This document shows, in pieces, positions 4,396 to 23,181 of a stretch of DNA of 40,720 bases. Within the stretch, counting starts at the first letter, position 1, and every line of letters starts with the position of its first letter. The notes beneath the pieces were generated by a model. That model saw only the letters and a list, made by a program, of their open reading frames with translations. It made no database searches and was not told where the DNA came from. Made by a program: the position numbers and the translations under genes. The stretch comes from a virus, in the IMG/VR virus record IMGVR_UViG_3300048686_000618, positions 1 to 40,720 of that record; one strand, given 5' to 3'.

Positions 4396-4967
4396 TTGAA
4401 ATAGTTTCAGCGGTACTAGCTATTGTACTAATAGATGTTGTACTAGGTGGAGAAAATGCACTAGTAATTGCAATGGCTAGTAGGAACTTACCGCCGCACC
4501 TTAGGCGTCGTGCACTTATCTGGGGCACATTTGGAGCTGTTGCAGTTAGATTCTTATGTGTAGCTGCACTAACCTATCTGCTAATGATTCCTGGCTTAAG
4601 ATTAGTTGGCGGATTAGCACTTATTTATATAGCTTGGACACTAGTTCGCAAGCAGCCAGAACAGGAAGAAAATGAAGTAACAGCAGCCAGCACTTTTTGG
4701 GGAGCTATGGCTACCATTGTGTGGGCGGACGCAGTTATGGGCCTAGATAATGCACTAGGTATTGCAGGCGCTGCTGGTGGTAATTGGCTATTAATTATTT
4801 TTGGATTATTAGTTAGTGTGCCTATTATATTATTTGGCAGTACAGTTATTGCCAAAATAATTGAACGCTGGCCACGAACTATTTGGCTAGGTGCACTAGT
4901 TTTAGTAGCAGTTGCGCTTCAAATGATTTATAATGAGCCAATGCTACAACAGTATTTATTTACTTGA
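4392..4967 (+). CDS. TerC/YjbE-family integral membrane protein
   Basis: A 191-aa protein with about six to seven predicted membrane helices. It carries the family's two acidic motifs: DVVLGGENALVIAMASRNLP (about residues 15-34) and WADAVMGLDNALGIAGAAGG (about 111-130). The length fits the short YjbE-type branch. Cellular relatives are linked to manganese or other metal export and to metallation of secreted proteins. In a phage it would be an auxiliary gene changing host metal handling during infection. It follows a one-span protein by overlap and ends where the tRNA promoter begins. Confidence 0.85.
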   Translation: MIEIVSAVLAIVLIDVVLGGENALVIAMASRNLPPHLRRRALIWGTFGAVAVRFLCVAALTYLLMIPGLRLVGGLALIYIAWTLVRKQPEQEENEVTAASTFWGAMATIVWADAVMGLDNALGIAGAAGGNWLLIIFGLLVSVPIILFGSTVIAKIIERWPRTIWLGALVLVAVALQMIYNEPMLQQYLFT

Positions 4968-5019: not shown

Positions 5020-5096
5020 GCACCGTTCGTCTAGCGGTCTAGGACAACGCCCTTTCACGGCGTAGATCACGGGTTCAAATCCCGTACGGTGTGCCA
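5020..5096 (+). tRNA. tRNA-Glu (TTC)
   Basis: Acceptor GCACCGT/ACGGTGT, anticodon loop CTTTCAC on an ACGCC/GGCGT stem, T-loop TTCAAAT, encoded CCA. First of eleven tRNAs behind one promoter. Confidence 0.93.
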
Positions 5097-5101
5097 AACT
5101 T

Positions 5102-5186
5102 GGACAACGAGCAGCATTGGCGACTGCAGCAGACTGTAAATCTGTTACCTCTGGTATACGGGGTTCGATTCCCTGGTTGTCCACCA
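5102..5186 (+). tRNA. tRNA-Tyr (GTA)
   Basis: Acceptor GGACAAC/GTTGTCC, loop CTGTAAA, long class II variable arm, T-loop TTCGATT, encoded CCA. Confidence 0.92.
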
Positions 5187-5192
5187 TACAAC

Positions 5193-5266
5193 TCCGGTGT
5201 AGTATAATGGCAGTGCGGCGGTCTCCAAAACCGTTAGTGGGGGTTCGATTCCCTCCACCGGAGCCA
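5193..5266 (+). tRNA. tRNA-Trp (CCA)
   Basis: Acceptor TCCGGTG/CACCGGA, discriminator G, anticodon loop CTCCAAA, T-loop TTCGATT, encoded CCA. Confidence 0.92.
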
Positions 5267-5268
5267 AA

Positions 5269-5308
5269 CTTTTAATATGCTAGTTGCCTACAGCTGGTAT
5301 ATTAAAAA
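5269..5308 (+). other. Hairpin between tRNA-Trp and tRNA-Ser
   Basis: TTTTAATAT pairs with ATATTAAAA around a loop that can pair further. It may be an RNase processing site or a weak terminator within the array; no long T-run follows. Confidence 0.5.
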
Positions 5309-5311
5309 TTT

Positions 5312-5401
5312 GGAAAGCGGGCAGGATGGTAATGCAGCGGATTGCTAATCCGTAGATTCACGAAAGTGGATCACAGGGTTCGACTCCCTGGCTTTCCGCC
5401 A
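5312..5401 (+). tRNA. tRNA-Ser (GCT)
   Basis: Acceptor GGAAAGC/GCTTTCC, loop TTGCTAA on a CGGA/TCCG stem, long variable arm, T-stem CAGGG/CCCTG, encoded CCA. Confidence 0.92.
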
Positions 5402-5408
5402 AATCAAT

Positions 5409-5483
5409 TCTGAGATAGCTCAGCGGTAGAGCAGTTGGCTGTTAACCAATTGGTCGTAGGTTCGATCCCTACTCTCAGAGCCA
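5409..5483 (+). tRNA. tRNA-Asn (GTT)
   Basis: Acceptor TCTGAGA/TCTCAGA, anticodon loop CTGTTAA, T-stem GTAGG/CCTAC, encoded CCA. Confidence 0.93.
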
Positions 5484-5492
5484 AAAAACAAT

Positions 5493-5567
5493 CGCGGGAT
5501 AGAGTAGTGGAATCTCGTTAGCCTCATAAGCTAAAGGTCACAGGTTCGAATCCTGTTCCCGCAACCA
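5493..5567 (+). tRNA. tRNA-Met (CAT), initiator-like
   Basis: Anticodon CAT in loop CTCATAA. The first acceptor position is C opposite A (C1-A72), the bacterial initiator hallmark, and the sequence starts CGCGGGA and ends CCCGCAACCA like tRNA-fMet. The anticodon stem is TTAGC/GCTAA, so the three consecutive G-C pairs of classical initiators are missing. Confidence 0.85.
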
Positions 5568-5568
5568 A

Positions 5569-5644
5569 TCCAGATTAGCTCAGCTGGTAGAGCAAACGAC
5601 CGATAATCGTTAGGTCAGTGGTTCGAGCCCACTATCTGGAACCA
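5569..5644 (+). tRNA. tRNA-Ile (GAT)
   Basis: Acceptor TCCAGAT/ATCTGGA, anticodon loop CCGATAA on AACGA/TCGTT, T-stem AGTGG/CCACT, encoded CCA. Confidence 0.92.
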
Positions 5645-5649
5645 AACAT

Positions 5650-5738
5650 GGAGGGTTATCTAGGCTGGGCCTAGCACTGCCTTGAAAGCAGATGGACTGT
5701 GCAAACGGTTGGAGTTCGATTCTATCAGCCCTCCTCCA
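5650..5738 (+). tRNA. tRNA-Ser (TGA) with irregular T-arm
   Basis: Acceptor GGAGGGT/GCCCTCC, anticodon loop CTTGAAA on CTGC/GCAG, variable arm GACTGT/ACGGTT and encoded CCA support tRNA-Ser. The T-stem does not pair well (TGGAG against CTATC, with one extra base before the acceptor), so it may be structurally odd or decaying. Confidence 0.8.
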
Positions 5739-5739
5739 G

Positions 5740-5813
5740 GCGGGTATAACTTAGTGGTAAAGTAATTGGCTTTTAACCAATAAACCAGAGTTCGATTCTC
5801 TGTGCCCGTACCA
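5740..5813 (+). tRNA. tRNA-Lys (TTT)
   Basis: Acceptor GCGGGTA/TGCCCGT (two wobble pairs), anticodon loop CTTTTAA on TTGG/CCAA, T-stem CAGAG/CTCTG, encoded CCA. Confidence 0.9.
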
Positions 5814-5815
5814 AA

Positions 5816-5935
5816 ATATAGTTGAGTACATTAGCAGTTGGCGTTCGACCACCTGAAAATATTACCTTGCAAGGCAGCACGTTTAGGCAACGAGGTACAC
5901 GTTGCAAAAGTGGATGCTAGTGTACTCAACTATAT
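5816..5935 (+). ncRNA. 120-nt hairpin RNA embedded in the tRNA array
   Basis: The ends form a 21-bp helix: 5816-5836 (ATATAGTTGAGTACA then TTAGCA) pairs with 5915-5935. Inside are GCAACG/CGTTGC closing a 7-nt loop (5887-5905), a CCTTGCAAGG self-complement and CCAC/GTGG. It has no anticodon arm, T-arm or reading frame and sits exactly between tRNA-Lys and tRNA-His in the same transcript. I do not recognise the family. It is followed by TTCGTACCA, like a tRNA 3' end. Confidence 0.7.
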
Positions 5936-5959
5936 TGTTCGTACCAAATATTTTTTGGT

Positions 5960-6033
5960 GTAACTATGGTGTAATGGTAGCACTAGACATTGTGGCTGTC
6001 TCGGCTTGAGTTCAAATCTCAATAGTCACCCCA
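5960..6033 (+). tRNA. tRNA-His (GTG)
   Basis: Anticodon loop TTGTGGC on AGACA/TGTCT; acceptor GTAACTA/TAGTCAC with one A-C mismatch, discriminator C as expected for His, encoded CCA. The base at -1 is T rather than the usual encoded G. Confidence 0.85.
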
Positions 6034-6043
6034 AAACGTATTT

Positions 6044-6119
6044 GCTGCTTTAGCTGATGTGGTCATAGCACCGGTCTGAAGAACCGAGGAACGTGGTTCG
6101 ATCCCACGAGGCAGCACCA
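6044..6119 (+). tRNA. tRNA-Phe (GAA)
   Basis: Acceptor GCTGCTT/AGGCAGC, anticodon loop CTGAAGA on CGGT/ACCG, T-stem CGTGG/CCACG, encoded CCA. Last tRNA of the array. Confidence 0.92.
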
Positions 6120-6143
6120 ACACACAATTTAAGTTAGGACAAT

Positions 6144-6680
6144 ATGTTTTGCAAAGATTTAGCTAATATTAATATTAGTTTAAATAATTTTATTAATATT
6201 AAAAATACTGCTATTAATAGCAAACAAATACAAATAATAAACTATCCTAATATAGATGCAAACTTAGCAACCCTACTAAAAAGATTAAATATCTATGTTA
6301 GTAGGGCAGAAGTCTTTTATATTCCACCTGAAACAATTTTGCCAATTCATATTGATTTAGATAAGTTTAGCAATATAGTTAAATTAAATTGGGTTATAGG
6401 TGGTGGAGAAATGATTTGGTGGACTCCTAATAATGATAACTATCAATCTTGCACTACACCAATAGGAACAAAATATTTATTATTTAACGAAGCCGATTGT
6501 ACTGAAACACATAGGCAACAAATAGGATTCCCAAGTCTAGTTAATGTTGGTATACCACACTCTGTAAATAATAATACTAAACTACCTAGATGGTGTATAA
6601 GTCATAATATACACTCTATTTCAACTAAAAAACAATTAGAGTGGAATGAAGCGTATTCTATGTTAGAACCACTATTTTAA
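6144..6680 (+). CDS. Putative 2OG-Fe(II)-dioxygenase-like protein
   Basis: A 178-aa protein with the pattern of a small cupin-fold dioxygenase: IPPETILPIHIDLDKF (about residues 60-75) supplies an HxD pair, then VKLNWVIGGGEMIWW, then NVGIPHSVNN with a distal His and PRWCISHNI with an Arg about 12 residues later. This HxD...H...R order matches 2OG enzymes, but the overall match is weaker than for the neighbouring oxygenases. It begins a strongly A/T-rich three-gene cassette. Ribosome site AGGACA. The substrate may be the product of the adjacent radical SAM protein; that is inference. Confidence 0.6.
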   Translation: MFCKDLANINISLNNFINIKNTAINSKQIQIINYPNIDANLATLLKRLNIYVSRAEVFYIPPETILPIHIDLDKFSNIVKLNWVIGGGEMIWWTPNNDNYQSCTTPIGTKYLLFNEADCTETHRQQIGFPSLVNVGIPHSVNNNTKLPRWCISHNIHSISTKKQLEWNEAYSMLEPLF

Positions 6681-6696
6681 CTGAAACAACTATAGT

Positions 6697-8271
6697 ATGC
6701 ATGGTATAATATTTACTGGTCTAGGGAACGATAACTTATTTTCTAGACCGGCTGGTGCGTTTAGAATTAGAACATTTTTAGAACAACATAATTACAACAT
6801 TGAAGTAATTGATTTTTTTGACTCATTTACAACTAGTGAACTTAATAGATTGCTACAACGATTTATATCAGATAAAACATTATTTATTGGAGTTAGCGTT
6901 ACTTTCTTTAACAATTTTACTAAAATAAATGAGTTATTTTCAATTGTTAAAAATAAATATCCAAAAATTAAAACAATTATTGGTGGAACTGAAATTAATT
7001 TGCATACAACTGAAAATAATTGTTTAAATATAAAATTAGTAGATAGAATTATTTGGGGATATGCCGAAGCAACAATTTTACATTACTTAGATTTTTTAAC
7101 AAAAAAACGACTAGACGGTATAAATTGGGTTCCATATCACGGAACTTATGCAATTGATGCAGAAGCAAACTATGGCACAGATTCTAGAGATCTAACCATT
7201 GAGTGGAAGAATTCAGATATTATAAATAAACATGTTCTTCCTATAGAAATTAGTCGTGGGTGTATTTTTAAATGCAAATTTTGTCAATTTCCTCTTTTAG
7301 GAAAGAAGAAAAACGACTATATTAGAGATGAAGTTAATATAACTCAGGAACTTGTAAAAAACTATGAAAAGTATGGTGTAACAACATATACTTTTCAAGA
7401 CGATACATTTAACGATAATCTAGTAAAATTAGAAAAAGTTGCCAATGCTATTGCTAAAAGCAACATTAAAATTAAATATGCCGCGTATTTACGCGCAGAC
7501 TTATTAGCAAGATTCCCCGAAACAATTTCAATGTTAGTTGATACTGGACTAATATCGGCTCAATTTGGTATTGAGTCTTTTAAAGAAGAAGCTAGAAAAT
7601 TAATTGGTAAAGGCGGAAATTTAGAAAAACAGTTTGACGCTATTAAAAAATTAAAAAGTCTTGGTAATATATGGACAAGCACTGGTTTAATAGTTGGTCT
7701 TCCGTATGAAACAGAAGATGAAATTTATAAAACACATGAATGGTTTTTGAATCAAAATGAAATTTATTTTAATAGATGGCAATTTTACGGCTTATATATA
7801 AGAACTAATGCTATGACTAGGTTAAGTGGATTTGACAAAGAATATGCTAAGTACGGCTATAAATTATTGCCAGTTCCAGAACTATGTATTAATGCACATT
7901 GGATCAATGACAGCATAAATATGACATCACAATCTGCTGCAAAATTAGCAGATAAGCTAAACAAAGAAATAGTTTTAAAATCTAGAACAAAATATTTATC
8001 AACTGTTGAAAAATGGTTAAGCGGTGATTTTATTGAAACTAACAGCGCCGATCAATTTGAGTTTATGGAAACTATTTCTGCAGGTATAAAAGCAGAAGAT
8101 GTGTTATCTAATAATATTGATTCAACTACTATTGATAATTTCAAAAATGACAGAAAAGAACTATTAAAAATTTATAAAGATTCTAAGTTAGATGTTAAAA
8201 ATTGGAAAGGCCGACAATTACTACAAATGAGCAATTATTCTAATAAAGTTATTGTGAATAATATTCAATGA
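6697..8271 (+). CDS. Radical SAM enzyme with B12-binding-type N-terminus
   Basis: A 524-aa protein. The first 150 residues look like a cobalamin-binding fold (MHGIIFTGLGNDNLFSRPAG start, later IKTIIGGTEINLHT and IIWGYAEATI). The radical SAM core follows, with the CxxxCxxC cluster motif as SRGCIFKCKFCQFP (about residues 187-200), and TYTFQDDTFNDN, ISAQFGIES and TSTGLIVGLPYET as later strand motifs. The C-terminal 130 residues are helical and unassigned. Relatives methylate or rearrange unactivated carbons on peptides, antibiotics, lipids or tetrapyrroles. Here it is flanked by two dioxygenase-like proteins, with a 4-base overlap to the next, so the three may act on one substrate. Confidence 0.85.
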   Translation: MHGIIFTGLGNDNLFSRPAGAFRIRTFLEQHNYNIEVIDFFDSFTTSELNRLLQRFISDKTLFIGVSVTFFNNFTKINELFSIVKNKYPKIKTIIGGTEINLHTTENNCLNIKLVDRIIWGYAEATILHYLDFLTKKRLDGINWVPYHGTYAIDAEANYGTDSRDLTIEWKNSDIINKHVLPIEISRGCIFKCKFCQFPLLGKKKNDYIRDEVNITQELVKNYEKYGVTTYTFQDDTFNDNLVKLEKVANAIAKSNIKIKYAAYLRADLLARFPETISMLVDTGLISAQFGIESFKEEARKLIGKGGNLEKQFDAIKKLKSLGNIWTSTGLIVGLPYETEDEIYKTHEWFLNQNEIYFNRWQFYGLYIRTNAMTRLSGFDKEYAKYGYKLLPVPELCINAHWINDSINMTSQSAAKLADKLNKEIVLKSRTKYLSTVEKWLSGDFIETNSADQFEFMETISAGIKAEDVLSNNIDSTTIDNFKNDRKELLKIYKDSKLDVKNWKGRQLLQMSNYSNKVIVNNIQ

Positions 8272-8987
8272 ATGATACTAACTTATTTCACGAAAATAAA
8301 ATTACTGAACTGAAATTATTTAGTGATTTGACTACCAAATACAAAACCATTAGAACAGAAGTATTAAATTTATATAATAATAATTATAATATATTACATG
8401 ACTACCCTCAATATAAGATACAAGGATATGATTGTTTGTGGGAAAATTATTGGAAATGTGCTCCATATACACAGTTTGAAGGTGAACATGTAGAAATTCA
8501 TGGTAGTGCAAAGGTTAAATATGTCTCGAATGACGATAACAATAGACTAATTGAAGGTAATAATAACGACGAAATATATAAAAAAGTTTTAACGCTTACT
8601 AATTTAACTAAAGCAATATGCCCTACGCTATATAGCGTGGTAGAAGAAGGCGATAAATTAGGCTACTTTAGGAATGGATTTATATCTGTGCTTAAACCTG
8701 GTAGTATTCTTAATCCACACTCTGGATGGACAAAAAGATTTCTTAGAGTACATTTAGGTATTCAATGTGACCCCCAATGTAAAATAACCGTTGGTCAAAA
8801 AACACAAACTTGGCAAGAGGGAAAAATATTAGCCTTTTGTGACGGAGATACCCATTCTGTAAAACATCTAGGTACTATACCTAGAATTATTACTAGTATA
8901 GATGTGAGTATAGACTGGTTAAAAACTCAGAATATAATTATTCCTCTACCAGGAGAAAAATGGTTTCGTGGAGTAAAATTTGCATAG
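8268..8987 (+). CDS. Aspartyl/asparaginyl beta-hydroxylase-like dioxygenase
   Basis: A 239-aa protein. The C-terminal half has the Asp/Asn beta-hydroxylase core: FISVLKPGSILNPHSGWTKR (about residues 141-160, metal His), RVHLGIQCD, then ILAFCDGDTHSVKHLGTIPR (about 187-206, second His and Arg). These Fe(II)/2OG enzymes hydroxylate Asp, Asn or related residues. The ATG overlaps the radical SAM stop by 4 bases, so the two are co-translated. Like the rest of the cassette it is very A/T-rich, which fits acquisition as a unit. Confidence 0.78.
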   Translation: MNDTNLFHENKITELKLFSDLTTKYKTIRTEVLNLYNNNYNILHDYPQYKIQGYDCLWENYWKCAPYTQFEGEHVEIHGSAKVKYVSNDDNNRLIEGNNNDEIYKKVLTLTNLTKAICPTLYSVVEEGDKLGYFRNGFISVLKPGSILNPHSGWTKRFLRVHLGIQCDPQCKITVGQKTQTWQEGKILAFCDGDTHSVKHLGTIPRIITSIDVSIDWLKTQNIIIPLPGEKWFRGVKFA

Positions 8988-9003
8988 GTTTAATAAAATT
9001 GAC

Positions 9004-9032
9004 TTGATTAATGAGTTATATTAGCCTATAAT
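9004..9032 (+). promoter_or_regulatory. Promoter for the amidotransferase-tRNA unit
   Basis: TTGATT at 9004-9009, 17-bp spacer, TATAAT at 9027-9032, 28 bases ahead of the ATG at 9060. It can also serve tRNAs Arg, Gln and Pro and the genes beyond. Confidence 0.8.
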
Positions 9033-9059
9033 ATATTTTTATGAAAACGGAAAAGATCA

Positions 9060-9689
9060 ATGAAAACTGCTAAAATACTAGTACATGATCCTGTTTTAGA
9101 ACTTGACTGTGCACATGCGGTTGCCAGTGCGCTTAAACCTGAGTTTAAGGTGCAGATGATTACACTAGATAACCTGCATGTGAGCCTATACGATTGCGAT
9201 CTCTTAGTAGTAGGCGGCGGCATTGGTGATAGTGATCTATTTGACGATATTATGACCAGAAACCACGTCCGTGTTGTACAAGACTATGTGGAAGCTGGCG
9301 GTAAATACTTAGGCATTTGCATGGGTGCTTACTGGGCAGGTGGACTATATTTTGATCTAGTACCACTAGCCGTAGGACAATATATTGTTACTGAGGATAA
9401 TGGTATTGACCATGAAGAACCTACTGTAGCAAACATTAGCTGGATGGGTGCACCATATACCATGTACTTTTATGACGGCTGTACCTTTCATGCACCAACT
9501 AAGAATACAGAAGTCATAGCTAGATACCAAAATGGTTATCCTATGGCTGTTATTGAAGCCGGTCAAGTTGGTTTAATAGGCTGTCATCCTGAGAGTGAGC
9601 CTTGGTGGTTTGTTGGTATTAGCCATGACTATACACCCAAACACGCCGAACTCTTAAAAGATTTCGCCATTAGATTAGTAACTAGCTGA
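9060..9689 (+). CDS. BPL_N-like glutamine amidotransferase-fold protein
   Basis: A 209-aa protein with the class I amidotransferase-like fold of the biotin-protein-ligase N-terminal family. It has LLVVGGGIGDSDLFDDI (about residues 49-65), a nucleophile elbow GKYLGICMGAYWAGG (about 81-95, Cys nucleophile) and GLIGCHPESEPWW (about 171-183) with the His of the catalytic pair. The reaction is unknown; the members' glutaminase partner is often absent. The stop codon lies inside tRNA-Arg, so this mRNA must be processed to free the tRNA. Confidence 0.75.
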   Translation: MKTAKILVHDPVLELDCAHAVASALKPEFKVQMITLDNLHVSLYDCDLLVVGGGIGDSDLFDDIMTRNHVRVVQDYVEAGGKYLGICMGAYWAGGLYFDLVPLAVGQYIVTEDNGIDHEEPTVANISWMGAPYTMYFYDGCTFHAPTKNTEVIARYQNGYPMAVIEAGQVGLIGCHPESEPWWFVGISHDYTPKHAELLKDFAIRLVTS

Positions 9690-9760
9690 CCGTCGTTCAA
9701 CGGATAGGACAGCACTCTTCTAAAGTGCGAATGGGGGTTCGATTCCCTCCGGTCGGGCCA
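9686..9760 (+). tRNA. tRNA-Arg (TCT)
   Basis: Acceptor CTGACCG/CGGTCGG, anticodon loop CTTCTAA on CACT/AGTG, T-loop TTCGATT, encoded CCA. It overlaps the upstream stop codon by four bases. TCT reads AGA, a codon used often by this phage. Confidence 0.88.
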
Positions 9761-9766
9761 AACAAC

Positions 9767-9840
9767 TGGGGTATAGTGAAATGGTATCACATCGGATTTT
9801 GATTCCGCTATTCTAGGTTCGACTCCTAGTGCCCTTGCCA
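9767..9840 (+). tRNA. tRNA-Gln (TTG)
   Basis: Starts TGGGGTA as in bacterial tRNA-Gln; anticodon loop TTTTGAT on CGGA/TCCG; T-stem CTAGG/CCTAG; encoded CCA. The first acceptor pair is open, as is usual for Gln. Confidence 0.88.
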
Positions 9841-9847
9841 AAACATT

Positions 9848-9926
9848 CTGGGATTATTGTCAGTCAGGTCAGACGGCGAGGTTTGGAACTTCGAGGCCGC
9901 AGGTTCGAATCCTGCATCCCAGACCA
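9848..9926 (+). tRNA. tRNA-Pro (TGG)
   Basis: Acceptor CTGGGAT/ATCCCAG, anticodon loop TTTGGAA on CGAGG/CTTCG, T-stem GCAGG/CCTGC, encoded CCA. It is slightly long (79 nt) because of the D-loop. Confidence 0.88.
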
Positions 9927-9934
9927 AGGAATAC

Positions 9935-10507
9935 ATGTATAAACAATACTTACACAATTATATTAAAGTATATAATAATTTTTTAGCATTAGATTTTTGT
10001 GATAGTGTTATTGACAGTTTAAATAATGTAAATTACATTAAACATCATTATCAAGATTACAATGATTATGTAATGCCAGCACAAAAAGATGATTTACAAG
10101 TTACAAGAACAATTATTCAAGAAGAAGAAGAGTTAAATGTAGCAATAGTAGCTGCTATAGAAACTTATATGCATAAAGACATGGCAGATTTTGCCCATCT
10201 ATGGGATACTTGTAATGGATTTACTAAGGTAAGATATAATAAATACTTTGTAAATACAAAAATGCATCAACATATTGATCATATACATAATATTTTTGAC
10301 GGAAAAATAAAAGGAATACCTACACTAAGTATAGTTGGATTATTGAATGATAATTATACTGGTGGAGAATTTATTATGTGGGATAATACAGTTATAAATT
10401 TAACTAAAGGTTCTATACTAATATTTCCAAGTACATTTATGTTTCCTCATAGAGTTAACGAGATTAAATCTGGTGTAAGACATAGTTTTGTAAGTTGGAC
10501 TTTTTAA
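9935..10507 (+). CDS. Prolyl-4-hydroxylase-type 2OG-Fe(II) oxygenase
   Basis: A 190-aa protein with the P4H-like core: KYFVNTKMHQHIDHIHNIFD (about residues 103-122, HxD metal pair), SIVGLLNDNYTGGEFIMWDN (about 133-152), GSILIFPSTFMFPHRVNEI (about 159-177, distal His) and SGVRHSFVSW with Arg. The ATG at 9935 follows AAGGA just after tRNA-Pro; upstream in-frame codons lie inside the tRNA. This family is common in large phages. Substrates are unknown; nucleic acid, virion protein and host protein are all possible. The gene is A/T-rich relative to its neighbours. Confidence 0.88.
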   Translation: MYKQYLHNYIKVYNNFLALDFCDSVIDSLNNVNYIKHHYQDYNDYVMPAQKDDLQVTRTIIQEEEELNVAIVAAIETYMHKDMADFAHLWDTCNGFTKVRYNKYFVNTKMHQHIDHIHNIFDGKIKGIPTLSIVGLLNDNYTGGEFIMWDNTVINLTKGSILIFPSTFMFPHRVNEIKSGVRHSFVSWTF

Positions 10508-10523
10508 ACAAAATCATATTAAT

Positions 10524-10600
10524 ATGAGGATGGCTGAGTGGTCGAAAGCAACAATCTGCAAAATTGTCAAATCGGGGTTCGAATCCCACTCCTCATTCCA
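10524..10600 (+). tRNA. tRNA-Cys (GCA)
   Basis: Acceptor ATGAGGA/TCCTCAT, anticodon loop CTGCAAA on CAAT/ATTG, T-loop TTCGAAT, encoded CCA. The T-stem has only three good pairs (CGGGG against CCCAC), so it is somewhat degenerate. Confidence 0.8.
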
Positions 10601-16646: not shown

Positions 16647-16675
16647 TTGAATGAGTTGGTCAAACCCTGTATAAT
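16647..16675 (+). promoter_or_regulatory. Promoter of large RNA A
   Basis: TTGAAT at 16647-16652, 17-bp spacer, TATAAT at 16670-16675 followed by ATTATT, preceded by an A/T-rich tract. Confidence 0.85.
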
Positions 16676-16681
16676 ATTATT

Positions 16682-17558
16682 TATAGTCAGTGAGGAAAGC
16701 AAAGCGATTAGTCGCCAACGGCTTTAAATGACATTTTGCCACACTAAATAAAATTATTTTAACATACAAAATGTGCATTGTAGCGACCACTGACTGTAAC
16801 AACAAAAAACTTTACCATACCCAATGGTAGAGCGCGATAGGACTAGCGTTAGGTGTCCTAGGTTAGTCACACAGACCTCCCAGTAGGCCATACATCTACT
16901 GTGGTAAAACGGTGACGGGGTTAGACATATACCTCGAATGTGTACGGACAGAGTAACTGCTCAGGTTGGGGCTGTTGGGGAACAGTAGCTAACTAAATCC
17001 TCTGATGAGCCACTGCAATGTGGCGAAACTCTAAACACACTAGCAAGTCGCTATGGCCCTTCAACTGCCATACCTGCTTAGGTTTAGGGTAAGGATAATA
17101 AGGCCCGATAAGCTTGCTGTCACATTTCCCTAGTGGCTAGGCGGCCAATGTCGAGGCGGGTGAAAGCCCCGTCAACTAAAATATGCGAGTGATGGTGGAC
17201 TACGCATAAGGTTATCTGAGACCTGCGGACCGTCGTCCAAGAGTAAAAAGACAATATGATCCAGTTTAGGGACTGGCATCATATTCAAGCACACTAGAGA
17301 TAAGCAGGAACAGGTCTAGACACTGGTCGCCTCGTCAAGTGTGTTTGAATATGGTTAGATAAGGGGTAGTATGTACGAGGCGTCTAACCTCCGAGGACTG
17401 GGATTCCCCTGCTAGCAACACTAGCGCCATACAAAAGCTGATTAGGGTTCGATACTGACGATGCGGCCGATGCAGACAGTAGCGCCCCAAAGGTGAGGAA
17501 TAGTAATCAGCTTTTGTATGGTTTTTCTTTGGCAGCCACTTGGCTGCCGTTTTCTTTT
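16682..17558 (+). ncRNA. Large structured non-coding RNA A, about 877 nt
   Basis: No reading frame of note runs through this stretch, yet it has its own promoter and terminator and many exact helices. The 5' domain pairs AGTCAGTG (16685-16692) with CACTGACT (16788-16795), nesting GTCGC/GCGAC and ACATTTTG/CAAAATGT. A 15-bp long-range helix joins 17281-17295 to 17338-17352, and CCAGT/ACTGG sits at 17262-17278. A 17-bp helix joins 17428-17444 to 17504-17520 near the 3' end. The size, the phage context and the nearby tRNAs recall the giant GOLLD and ROOL RNAs, but I cannot confirm membership. It could be a new class. Confidence 0.8.
17531..17558 (+). terminator. Terminator of large RNA A
   Basis: GGCAGCC (17531-17537) pairs with GGCTGCC (17542-17548), followed by GTTTTCTTTT. 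The 17-bp helix just upstream also ends in a T-run (17522-17530). Confidence 0.82.
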
Positions 17559-20528: not shown

Positions 20529-20557
20529 TTGAACGGCGTGCCAAACCTGTGTATAAT
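20529..20557 (+). promoter_or_regulatory. Promoter for the 20582 operon
   Basis: TTGAAC at 20529-20534, 17-bp spacer, TATAAT at 20552-20557 with AAATATTC upstream. Transcription would start near 20564, with a GAGGAGC ribosome site just after. Confidence 0.85.
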
Positions 20558-21191: not shown

Positions 21192-21220
21192 TTGATTTGT
21201 CTGACAGAAGTCTGTATAAT
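21192..21220 (+). promoter_or_regulatory. Promoter of the structured leader RNA
   Basis: TTGATT at 21192-21197, 17-bp spacer, TATAAT at 21215-21220 followed by ATTATT; AAAATATTCA lies upstream, as at several other phage promoters here. Confidence 0.85.
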
Positions 21221-21226
21221 ATTATT

Positions 21227-21470
21227 ATTGTGTTAGAGAACAATCGCCAGAGAGTACAACCAACTAATATTAAGGCTAAGCTATGACTTAGCAGCGGTAC
21301 TCCCTCTAACCCTATTTGTTTAGTGTTATCAAGGTATCGCTATAGGACGCTATAGCTATTCGGGTTCAATCAGCCGGAGACGAATCCTGAAATAACTGCA
21401 TCGGCTATGACTGGTTAGCTACCATATGTCTAAATTTGCACGATAGCACTAAATAAATAGTTAAAGGAGA
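21227..21470 (+). ncRNA. Structured 5' leader RNA, about 245 nt
   Basis: There is no reading frame between the promoter and the ATG at 21477. Visible helices: GTTAGAG with CTCTAAC (enclosing AGAGTAC/GTACTC and GCTAAG/CTTAGC), GCTATAG/CTATAGC closing a GACG loop (about 21339-21356), ATTCG/CGAAT and AGCCG/CGGCT, which interlock as a possible pseudoknot. The layout is like a riboswitch or other cis-regulatory leader for the small gene at 21477, or a stand-alone RNA. Its ligand or class is unknown. Confidence 0.65.
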
Positions 21471-21476
21471 GCATAG

Positions 21477-21653
21477 ATGATTACTTATGGTGAATTGCTT
21501 AAGAGGTTGCAAGGTTTTACCAAGGAACAGCTTGATTGTACAGTAGTAGTCCTAGATCGTGCCTATGATGAGTATAACGACATGACTACCATCTACTTTA
21601 GCGGTGTGGAGAACGATGTACTAGACGAAGACCACCCCATCCTTGTAATCTAA
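21477..21653 (+). CDS. Small acidic protein behind the structured leader, 58 aa
   Basis: Starts after a good AAAGGAGA site. Product MITYGELLKRLQGFTKEQLD, then CTVVVLDRAYDEYNDMTTIY; a small alpha/beta acidic protein. It is the only gene between the leader RNA (21227-21470) and the hairpin element (21654-21753), so its expression is probably RNA-controlled. Function unknown. Confidence 0.68.
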   Translation: MITYGELLKRLQGFTKEQLDCTVVVLDRAYDEYNDMTTIYFSGVENDVLDEDHPILVI

Positions 21654-21753
21654 AAGCTGTTAAGGGTTCGGCACACCAACCTGCTAGCCGTGTGGTGTGA
21701 TGCCCAAAACGCCAACTCAAAAGTTGGCTAAAGTGCGGAATAGTTAACAGCTT
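21654..21753 (+). ncRNA. 100-nt structured element sharing a motif with RNA A
   Basis: AAGCTGTTAA (21654-21663) pairs with TTAACAGCTT (21744-21753). Inside are GGGTTCG, a hairpin CACACCA/TGGTGTG (21672-21699), GCCCAAA, a second hairpin GCCAACT/AGTTGGC (21711-21728) and GTGCGGAATAG. The 3' end of RNA A (17434-17514) has the same order: AAAGCTG, GGGTTCG, hairpin, GCGCCCCAAA, then GTGAGGAATAG and the closing strand. It begins right after the upstream stop codon, so it may be a 3' UTR element or separate RNA. Confidence 0.7.
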
Positions 21754-21766
21754 AAAAAATCTTTAC

Positions 21767-21821: not shown

Positions 21822-22016
21822 ATGTCAATGATGACACTAGAAGTTGAGGTTGGCAGAGGTCTAGTAGAACTAACTGGCAGTAACTGTAAATATTGGCAGG
21901 GCTGTGGACTGCCAGACTATGAAGGCCCAATTGCTGGGCTACCACCAGAGGTAATCAAAACACTACTTGAGCTAGGGGCAATCAAAAATATTCACTTGAA
22001 CAAAGAGCTTCCTTAG
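21822..22016 (+). CDS. Small hypothetical protein, 64 aa
   Basis: ATG 21822 is preceded by GGGGAG at good spacing. Product MSMMTLEVEVGRGLVELTGS, then CKYWQGCGLPDYEGPIAGLP; the last 20 codons include the -35 region of the next promoter. Function unknown. Confidence 0.62.
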   Translation: MSMMTLEVEVGRGLVELTGSNCKYWQGCGLPDYEGPIAGLPPEVIKTLLELGAIKNIHLNKELP

Positions 22017-22024
22017 TGTATAAT
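21996..22024 (+). promoter_or_regulatory. Promoter of giant RNA D
   Basis: TTGAAC at 21996-22001, 17-bp spacer, TATAAT at 22019-22024. The -35 lies inside the preceding coding sequence and the -10 just after its stop. Confidence 0.85.
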
Positions 22025-22030
22025 ATTTAT

Positions 22031-23181
22031 ATAAATTGAGAGTTTAGGGCGAACCAGGGCCAACATTAATCTGTTGGATAAGTTCTTAATCTGTGTTGAA
22101 ACTACCCTTAACACAGACCCAACCAACCTATTTGTATAACTACGGAAACACACAGACCCTATGCTGTGCCGTGGTTATACAAATGTGTTGATGCCCAGTT
22201 AGCTAGTAGTAACTCCTAGAGTACAAAGACTAGCTGGCCTATATTACGCATTGTTGGAAAGGGCAACCAATGTAAAAAATGCCACAACGGTGTTGAAATC
22301 TGTGGCTGGCAAGTAGGCCCATAAAGCTGAAAAGACGCGGAACGGATACACATGGTGGAAGCTGCTAACCACCCTAAAGGAACCAGCCCCCTAGTTTGTT
22401 AACAGTTATAGGGGTTAACCAAAAGACCTGTTACCGTAGCATATACGTAGTTATGCGTTATCTAACACGAGAGTTAGAAACCAGTGGAGCCGATTCTGTT
22501 GCAAAACATGGCGGCCAACCACTACACCGTCCCTGAGCTATTCCTCTTGCCAACTAAGATTGGACAATGAACTCAGGGTTATATGCCACAAGCCGTAGTT
22601 AACTGGAGCTGTGGGGTAGATAGTCGTTAACAGTGCCAGTAGCTCAAACGTGCTCAGAGCAAAGGTGTGCTAGAAATAAGCCCTCTAGCCTGGCAAATAG
22701 TTCAAACACAGTGCAGAGTGAACATTAGCCTACAGCTAGCTGCCAGCAACTAAAAACAGTGCGTTGCTAAGGTTTGAAGCCGACCCAATCTAGCGATTTA
22801 GGGTCGGGGTTTAGCAGTAACCGAAAACTGCTTGTGCCCAACTGGGCCAGTGCGCCAACAATAAATGGCAAGGCTATAACCACAGTGCCTGGTTAGTCGC
22901 GTTCTTATAATTGTTAATAGCCAGCAACGTCTGGTAATCTAGGTGCAAATCCTAGACGCGCTAGTTGCCCATATCTTGGCTGGAACCCAAGACCGAACAG
23001 CAACTAAGAATCACAAGATTCGGGACATCAACTGCACCGACTTACGCCAATTCGCAATCGGCTAGAGTGTAGACAAAAGATGCTGGTGGTCGTAGTAGCA
23101 CTACATAAAAGTAATCCACTTCCTAAATCGTCGACGTGCTAAAGCCCGCCTGCTCTGAAGCAGAGCGGGCTTTAGTTTTTT
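22031..23181 (+). ncRNA. Giant structured non-coding RNA D, about 1150 nt
   Basis: The stretch has a consensus promoter, a strong terminator and no protein-like frame. Clear helices: 22131-22145 with 22169-22183 (15 bp), GCCACA/TGTGGC, TCTAAC/GTTAGA, CCGACCC/GGGTCGG (22780-22807), AGCAGT/ACTGCT, and GAATC/GATTC near 23009-23022. A three-way junction at 22894-22963 carries a T-loop-like hairpin TCTAGG-TGCAAAT-CCTAGA. The size and complexity are in the range of GOLLD, ROOL and OLE, and phage location near tRNA genes is typical of the first two. Identity cannot be settled by eye. Confidence 0.8.
23139..23181 (+). terminator. Terminator of giant RNA D
   Basis: CTAAAGCCCGC (23139-23149) pairs perfectly with GCGGGCTTTAG (23165-23175), followed by a run of T. 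Confidence 0.92.

Follow-up and report, generated by a model that had tools for sequence, protein, structure and literature searches.

The question raised by this locus is whether a stretch of about 1150 nt in a phage genome, positions 22031 to 23181 of the DNA analysed (the window, 40,720 nucleotides), is the gene of a giant structured non-coding RNA, as an earlier note made from the sequence alone had proposed, and, if so, what kind of RNA it is. The window is a single IMG/VR record from an uncultured phage, with phage terminase and portal genes as well as ThyX, PstS-like protein and 2OG oxygenase-like genes. Its terminase shares ~49% identity with the terminases of Vibrio phages, vB_ValS_X1 among them, members of a group that we take to be the one labelled 'T5-like'. 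The RNA, termed RNA2, is listed with its parts and with the other giant RNA of the window, RNA1, in Table 1.

Table 1. Features of the RNA2 locus and position of RNA1 in the window
Feature	Coordinates	Strand	Description
Giant structured non-coding RNA (RNA2), whole transcript	22031..23181	+	~1150 nt; no ORF of at least 60 aa; folding z -4.82; homologs; covariation
Promoter	21996..22027	+	TTGAAC-17-TATAAT(ATT); boxes span 21996-22024; motif also 5' of the RNA in homologs
5' domain	22047..22190	+	GGGCGAACCAGGGCC at the start, then two hairpins and a long helix (22124-22190) with conserved apical loop ACCCYAUG
Optional module, ~99 nt	22191..22289	+	flanked by GTGTTGA repeats; carried by window and L184, lacking in L084, L085/L086, L087 and L178
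Core domain B	22290..22526	+	two hairpins with invariant loops, UACGUAGU and ACGAGA, the latter with all six stem pairs covarying
Optional module, ~108 nt	22527..22634	+	carried by window and L085/L086 and in part by L184; lacking in L084, L087 and L178
Core hairpin domain C	22635..22694	+	near-invariant, 60 nt, 95-100% identical among all six sequences
Swappable module	22695..22850	+	long form (window, L087, L178), alternative form (L084, L085), short form (L184)
3' domain	22851..23119	+	16 helices; encloses tRNA-like sub-domain
tRNA-like sub-domain without D-arm	22893..22963	+	CGCG/CGCG closing stem, small hairpin, T-arm-like hairpin
Intrinsic terminator	23139..23181	+	arms 23139-23149 / 23165-23175, 11 bp, 100% complementary, then T run
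RNA1, other giant RNA	16682-17535		~850 nt; promoter motif at 16647

The promoter, described as strong in the earlier note, matches the consensus at 10 of 12 positions, and its -35 box lies within the final codons of a 64-aa ORF upstream. The same motif was present before the RNA in all five homologous contigs that have its 5' end. The perfect 11-bp terminator stem was likewise as the note had described it and is retained in all six distinct sequences available, with one compensated pair. The claimed absence of a reading frame also held: each of the six frames contains 19-26 stops, and the longest stop-free run is 60 codons. The GC content is 46%, compared with 40% in the window. A short ORF that crosses a covarying helix varies freely in its amino acids (LTRELET, LLREVRT or YKRDYRN) while the RNA stem stays paired. 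The flanking genes differ between phages, indicating that no gene is interrupted at this locus.

The possibility was considered that the locus is non-functional, being a degraded gene, an intron or intergenic filler. Folding of positions 22038-23028 gave a minimum free energy of -317.7 kcal/mol, compared with -279.8 +/- 7.9 kcal/mol for 20 dinucleotide shuffles. In 200-nt tiles the signal was strong near both ends (tiles 22001, z -6.7; 22101, -4.0; 22801, -3.1; 23101, -4.7) and weak or absent in parts of the middle (22201, +0.9; 22601, +1.8). Given this unevenness, structure along the whole of RNA2 could not be claimed from the z-score by itself, and interior tiles that fold no better than chance are what the non-functional reading has in its favor. 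However, the stops in all six frames run counter to a degraded gene, and the covariation and near-invariance described below, the conserved promoter and terminator, and the lack of an intron, rRNA or other Rfam match leave this explanation with a negligible probability. Conservation and covariation in relatives are stronger evidence for structure than the folding score.

Homologs of RNA2 were found in six other IMG/VR contigs that represent five distinct sequences, six with the window; L085 and L086 do not differ within the RNA and were counted once. Four of them (L084, L085, L086 and L087) were reached via a search with the phage's phosphoesterase and two (L178 and L184) via exact 19- and 21-mers from the RNA. 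The order of RNA2 relative to RNA1 is the same wherever both were found. When 50 related phage records, many of them fragments, were searched by blastn, 4 matched RNA2. The covariance models R1 and R2 each gave a strong match in 4 of the 50 records and either no match or E values of 0.03-0.6 in the rest; the list includes L198, the record of L184, and does not include L086 or L178. The same phages were recovered by protein scans for synteny with the flanking ORFs, together with L197, a contig beginning 54 bases ahead of the downstream gene.

In the INPHARED collection, blastn matched 67 of 50,697 records, and the best 20 of the 67, led by Salmonella phages of ~110 kb, match the promoter stretch only (query 481/487-543). 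The L178 version of the RNA matched one INPHARED record, over 40 bases near the terminator, and PLSDB gave no match. At the sensitivity used, neither an INPHARED phage nor a PLSDB plasmid was found to carry RNA2. Several candidates were rejected. A 19-mer from core B hit nine loci in GTDB contigs, all of them chance matches by profile (best 8.4 bits); L220, hit by a 19-mer of domain C, was also a chance match and was all that two further 19-mers added. The matches of L114 and L117 to the T-arm pattern fall in an ordinary tRNA cluster.

The comparison with related phage genomes proposed in the earlier note allowed the pairing itself to be evaluated. Consensus structures came from separate alignments of the 5' domain, core B and the 3' domain, and the covariation count was confined to these three parts, to the exclusion of domain C and the optional modules. 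L184, which starts inside the RNA and so has no 5' end, was left out of alignments A5 and A6, and its first ~50 nt, misaligned in A2, were dropped from later alignments; L087 is partial in A5. Among the six distinct sequences, 25 of 199 tested pairs changed on both sides and 97.6-98.2% of the consensus-structure cells were paired, figures to be read knowing that these alignments also supplied the structures and that, with only six sequences, many pairs never vary. By domain, both-side changes were seen in 14 of 78 pairs in the 3' domain (97.6% of cells paired), 7 of 70 in core B (97.9%) and 4 of 51 in the 5' domain (98.2%); the independent change events are fewer than the cells, several changes being common to groups of sequences.

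When the partners were slid by 1-3 columns as a control, there were only 0-3 both-side pairs per alignment and 30-50% of cells were paired. The observed both-side count was reached by none of 500 shuffles for the 3' domain, none of 500 for core B and 2 of 500 for the 5' domain. The conserved structure was accepted because of the gap between the observed pairing and the slid controls. Furthermore, model R1, built without L184, recovered L184 with 144.9 bits (E 5.4e-32). Paired bases are thus kept by compensatory change, the opposite of the unconserved pairing that would have told against the earlier note, and the locus is almost certainly a gene for a non-coding structured RNA.

The clearest covarying helix, 22461-22478, has six pairs closed by the invariant ACGAGA loop, and its stem occurs as UCUAAC/GUUAGA, CUUACU/AGUAAG and CUAUAA/UUAUAG. 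The hairpin at 23008-23021 has four different stems among the sequences, and one apical loop of core B varies between GAAA, GCAA and a longer form. Near the 5' end the earlier note had placed a 15-bp helix; the helix is there and is somewhat longer, the arms (22124-22145 / 22169-22190) being 22 nt long and 86% complementary. A loop-loop pairing, AACAA/UUGUU, noticed by eye in core B, was dropped on finding it broken in L084 and L087. Self-complementary loops were also considered as evidence of kissing contacts in a multimer, and the best of them was not accepted as such: UACGUA is the only invariant one of at least 5 nt, and shuffled loops equal it in 15.5% of trials.

The conserved core of RNA2 is near-invariant, while at the periphery modules are gained, lost or exchanged as a mosaic. 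There are four variable sites, namely the 99-nt module, an insert of ~157 nt in L087 whose 3' end is common to L184, the 108-nt module and the swapped module. Identity is 90-98% in the 5' stretch (five sequences) and 82-94% in the 3' stretch (six sequences). The groupings of the sequences conflict from one part to another. The tRNA-like part separates the window, L087 and L184 (93-100% identical) from L084, L085 and L178 (94-97%), with 70-76% identity between the groups; in core B, L084 pairs with L178 (99%); in domain C, L084 and L184 are identical; and in the hairpin at 22961-23008 the window and L085 are identical. These conflicts suggest that recombination has taken place within the RNA gene.

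The T-arm-like hairpin of the tRNA-like sub-domain reads CTAGG-TGCAAAT-CCTAG in the window and GTAGG-TGAAAAC-CCTAC in others, a compensatory change of C-G to G-C in three of the six sequences. The L087 insert carries a second hairpin of this type, GG-TGCAAAT-CC. Neither ARAGORN nor Rfam called a tRNA or tmRNA at 22893-22963 or in the homologs. Mimicry of tRNA was rejected, as the T-arm-like hairpin stands alone and there is no D-arm; the part reads as a T-loop structural module, by comparison with what we take to be the T-loop consensus.

The covariance-model searches proposed in the earlier note were run with the models of known families. Rfam 15, searched with its gathering thresholds and again with E relaxed to 10, gave nothing beyond chance-level matches at RNA2, the best below threshold being SSRC34_2 (24 bits, gathering 48) and SAM-II (21.6 bits, gathering 44). 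There was no match to rRNA or to group I or II introns, which would have refuted the earlier claim, and the relatives gave no credible match at E up to 1. Similarly, cmscan at E up to 10 returned neither GOLLD nor ROOL. It is therefore highly likely that RNA2 represents a new family outside Rfam. No description of this RNA was found in the literature covered, in which subscription papers are thinly represented.

RNA2 is nevertheless of a known general kind, the giant ornate phage RNA: by sequence it has its own promoter and terminator, its structure covaries and it is phage-borne. Nearness to tRNA genes holds loosely, as a cluster of 14 tRNAs (5020-10600) lies 12-17 kb upstream. According to PMC12286853, GOLLD forms a 14-mer RNA cage and ROOL an 8-mer, and both are phage-borne, often near tRNA islands, and of unknown purpose. 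The same text describes many GOLLD RNAs as longer than 800 nt, with a conserved 3' part and a less conserved 5' part, and ROOL as a large phage RNA with no known protein partner (PMC12286853). OLE RNA is found mostly in Bacillota (PMC12054373). RNA2 resembles GOLLD in being very large and phage-borne and in combining a conserved core with variable parts in a genome that has a tRNA cluster; in contrast to the conserved 3' region of GOLLD, its core spans both ends, with four variable sites. It resembles ROOL as a large phage RNA with tRNAs in the same genome, but the ROOL model has 574 positions, half the length. It shares with OLE the character of a large ornate non-coding RNA and differs in that OLE occurs mostly in Bacillota and that Rfam gave no match at RNA2.

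The size, the phage origin, the tRNA cluster and the pattern of core and variable parts could also be accounted for if RNA2 were a divergent GOLLD or ROOL missed by the models. However, the GOLLD model (gathering 150 bits) found nothing in the window at E up to 10 and nothing over its cut-off in 11 records, the 14 control genomes also giving none over the cut-off; weak GOLLD-model matches in G053, G023 and G039 fall away from the RNA2 position. The ROOL model (gathering 99.1 bits) matched none of the 11 records at E up to 10, and the controls were likewise without a match. With no match at the RNA2 position of the relatives either, this explanation is very improbable.

The promoter of RNA2 belongs to a type that recurs in the window. 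The motif TTGAN{17,21}TATAATATT occurs 7 times, compared with 0.04 expected. One copy, at 4964, lies 56 bp before tRNA-Glu (5020), the first tRNA of the cluster, as does one 61 bp before in L084 (5887). Others precede RNA1 (16647), a small conserved stretch (21192), the 64-aa ORF (21767) and RNA2 (21996), and the remaining two are at 20529 and 29334. As a separate observation, the stretch at 21231-21460, behind the copy at 21192, is possibly another structured RNA: ~228 nt are 97-98% identical in L084, L085 and L086, with matches also in L087 (83 nt) and L112 (41 nt), and the ORF that follows differs between phages.

The second giant RNA claimed within 7 kb of RNA2 was located as RNA1, which has no sequence similarity to RNA2 beyond chance. 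The two are alike in promoter type, in genome neighbourhood and in their presence in L084, L085/L086 and L087. Shorter matches to RNA1 occur in L092, L100, L101, L114, L145 and L155, and no RNA2 match was found in the records of these six distant loci; on the sequences compared, RNA1 is more widespread than RNA2. Within RNA1, positions 16980-17034 hold a hammerhead-like core (CUGAUGAG...CGAAAC; Hammerhead_3 28.0 bits, below the gathering score of 48.5). The core is present as well in two relatives, L084 and L085, where stem II has changed by compensation (GCCAC/GUGGC to GCUGG/CCAGC), but was not found in L087; no stems I and III that would support cleavage were identified. The 3' end of RNA1 (17434-17517) and positions 21652-21755, which overlap the end of a small ORF, have a common motif, AAAGCTG(A/T)T(T/A)AGGGTTCG ... 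GGAATAGTWAWCAGCTT, that looks like a reused RNA hairpin module.

The organization of the locus raised the possibility that RNA2 is a long 5' UTR leader of the downstream gene, with a conditional terminator and a fold that controls read-through. The terminator and the start of the next gene are 25 nt apart, with no clear promoter between them, and all five distinct relatives have one and the same ORF of 68-70 aa at this place. Moreover, the invariant loop AAUAAGCCC could, as judged by eye, pair six bases with the 3' arm of the terminator. However, the same RNA is followed in the window by an unrelated gene, for a 497-aa glycine-rich fibre-like protein, the terminator stem is perfect in all six sequences, and the module insertions are interior rather than next to the terminator. 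The length of more than 1 kb also argues against a leader because it is, to our knowledge, far beyond that of known attenuators. The leader explanation is thus distinctly improbable, and RNA2 very probably acts as a stand-alone RNA. Farther downstream in two relatives (L178 ~2090-2290 and L184 ~1195-1400), a promoter-like box and a hairpin-rich non-coding stretch were seen by eye 3' of the 69-aa gene.

RNA2 is probably a stand-alone gene for a ~1.15-kb RNA that acts as RNA rather than as mRNA, represents a new family and, by analogy with GOLLD and ROOL, would work as a particle or scaffold. It would be transcribed with the tRNA cluster and the other structured RNAs under the shared promoter type, its near-invariant core would fold into a large RNA particle or scaffold, and the optional peripheral modules would provide surface or lumen elements. 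That RNA2 forms a homo-multimer can be proposed only tentatively, on the same analogy.

Alternatively, RNA2 could be a protein-binding particle or scaffold, a sponge or an RNP that holds, for example, ribosomal proteins or ribosomes, rather than an RNA-only cage. About 55 nt around TTATAGGGGTTAACCAAAAGACCTG are invariant (first five sequences aligned) and could be ligand contacts, and PMC12286853 reports that GOLLD binds ribosomes in pull-downs and that OLE binds proteins. Tertiary and quaternary contacts would explain the invariance equally well, and the protein-binding reading is considered rather unlikely. The mosaic of optional modules suggests which parts might be removed experimentally with the core left intact.

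A broader proposal, rather doubtful at present, is that infection by this phage group follows a programme based on RNA. One promoter type would serve the tRNA cluster, the smaller conserved RNAs and two or more giant RNAs unrelated to each other, and RNA2 would self-assemble into a new kind of RNA-only particle, with exchangeable modules at its periphery that tune its cargo or binding partners, perhaps tRNAs or ribosomes. Few natural RNAs of the size of RNA2 are known outside rRNA. If RNA2 is a further phage family of ~1 kb, unrelated in sequence and found beside another giant RNA in one genome and under the promoter type of the tRNA cluster, there would be more than two such phage inventions, and RNA2 would offer an independent system for the function of giant RNAs.
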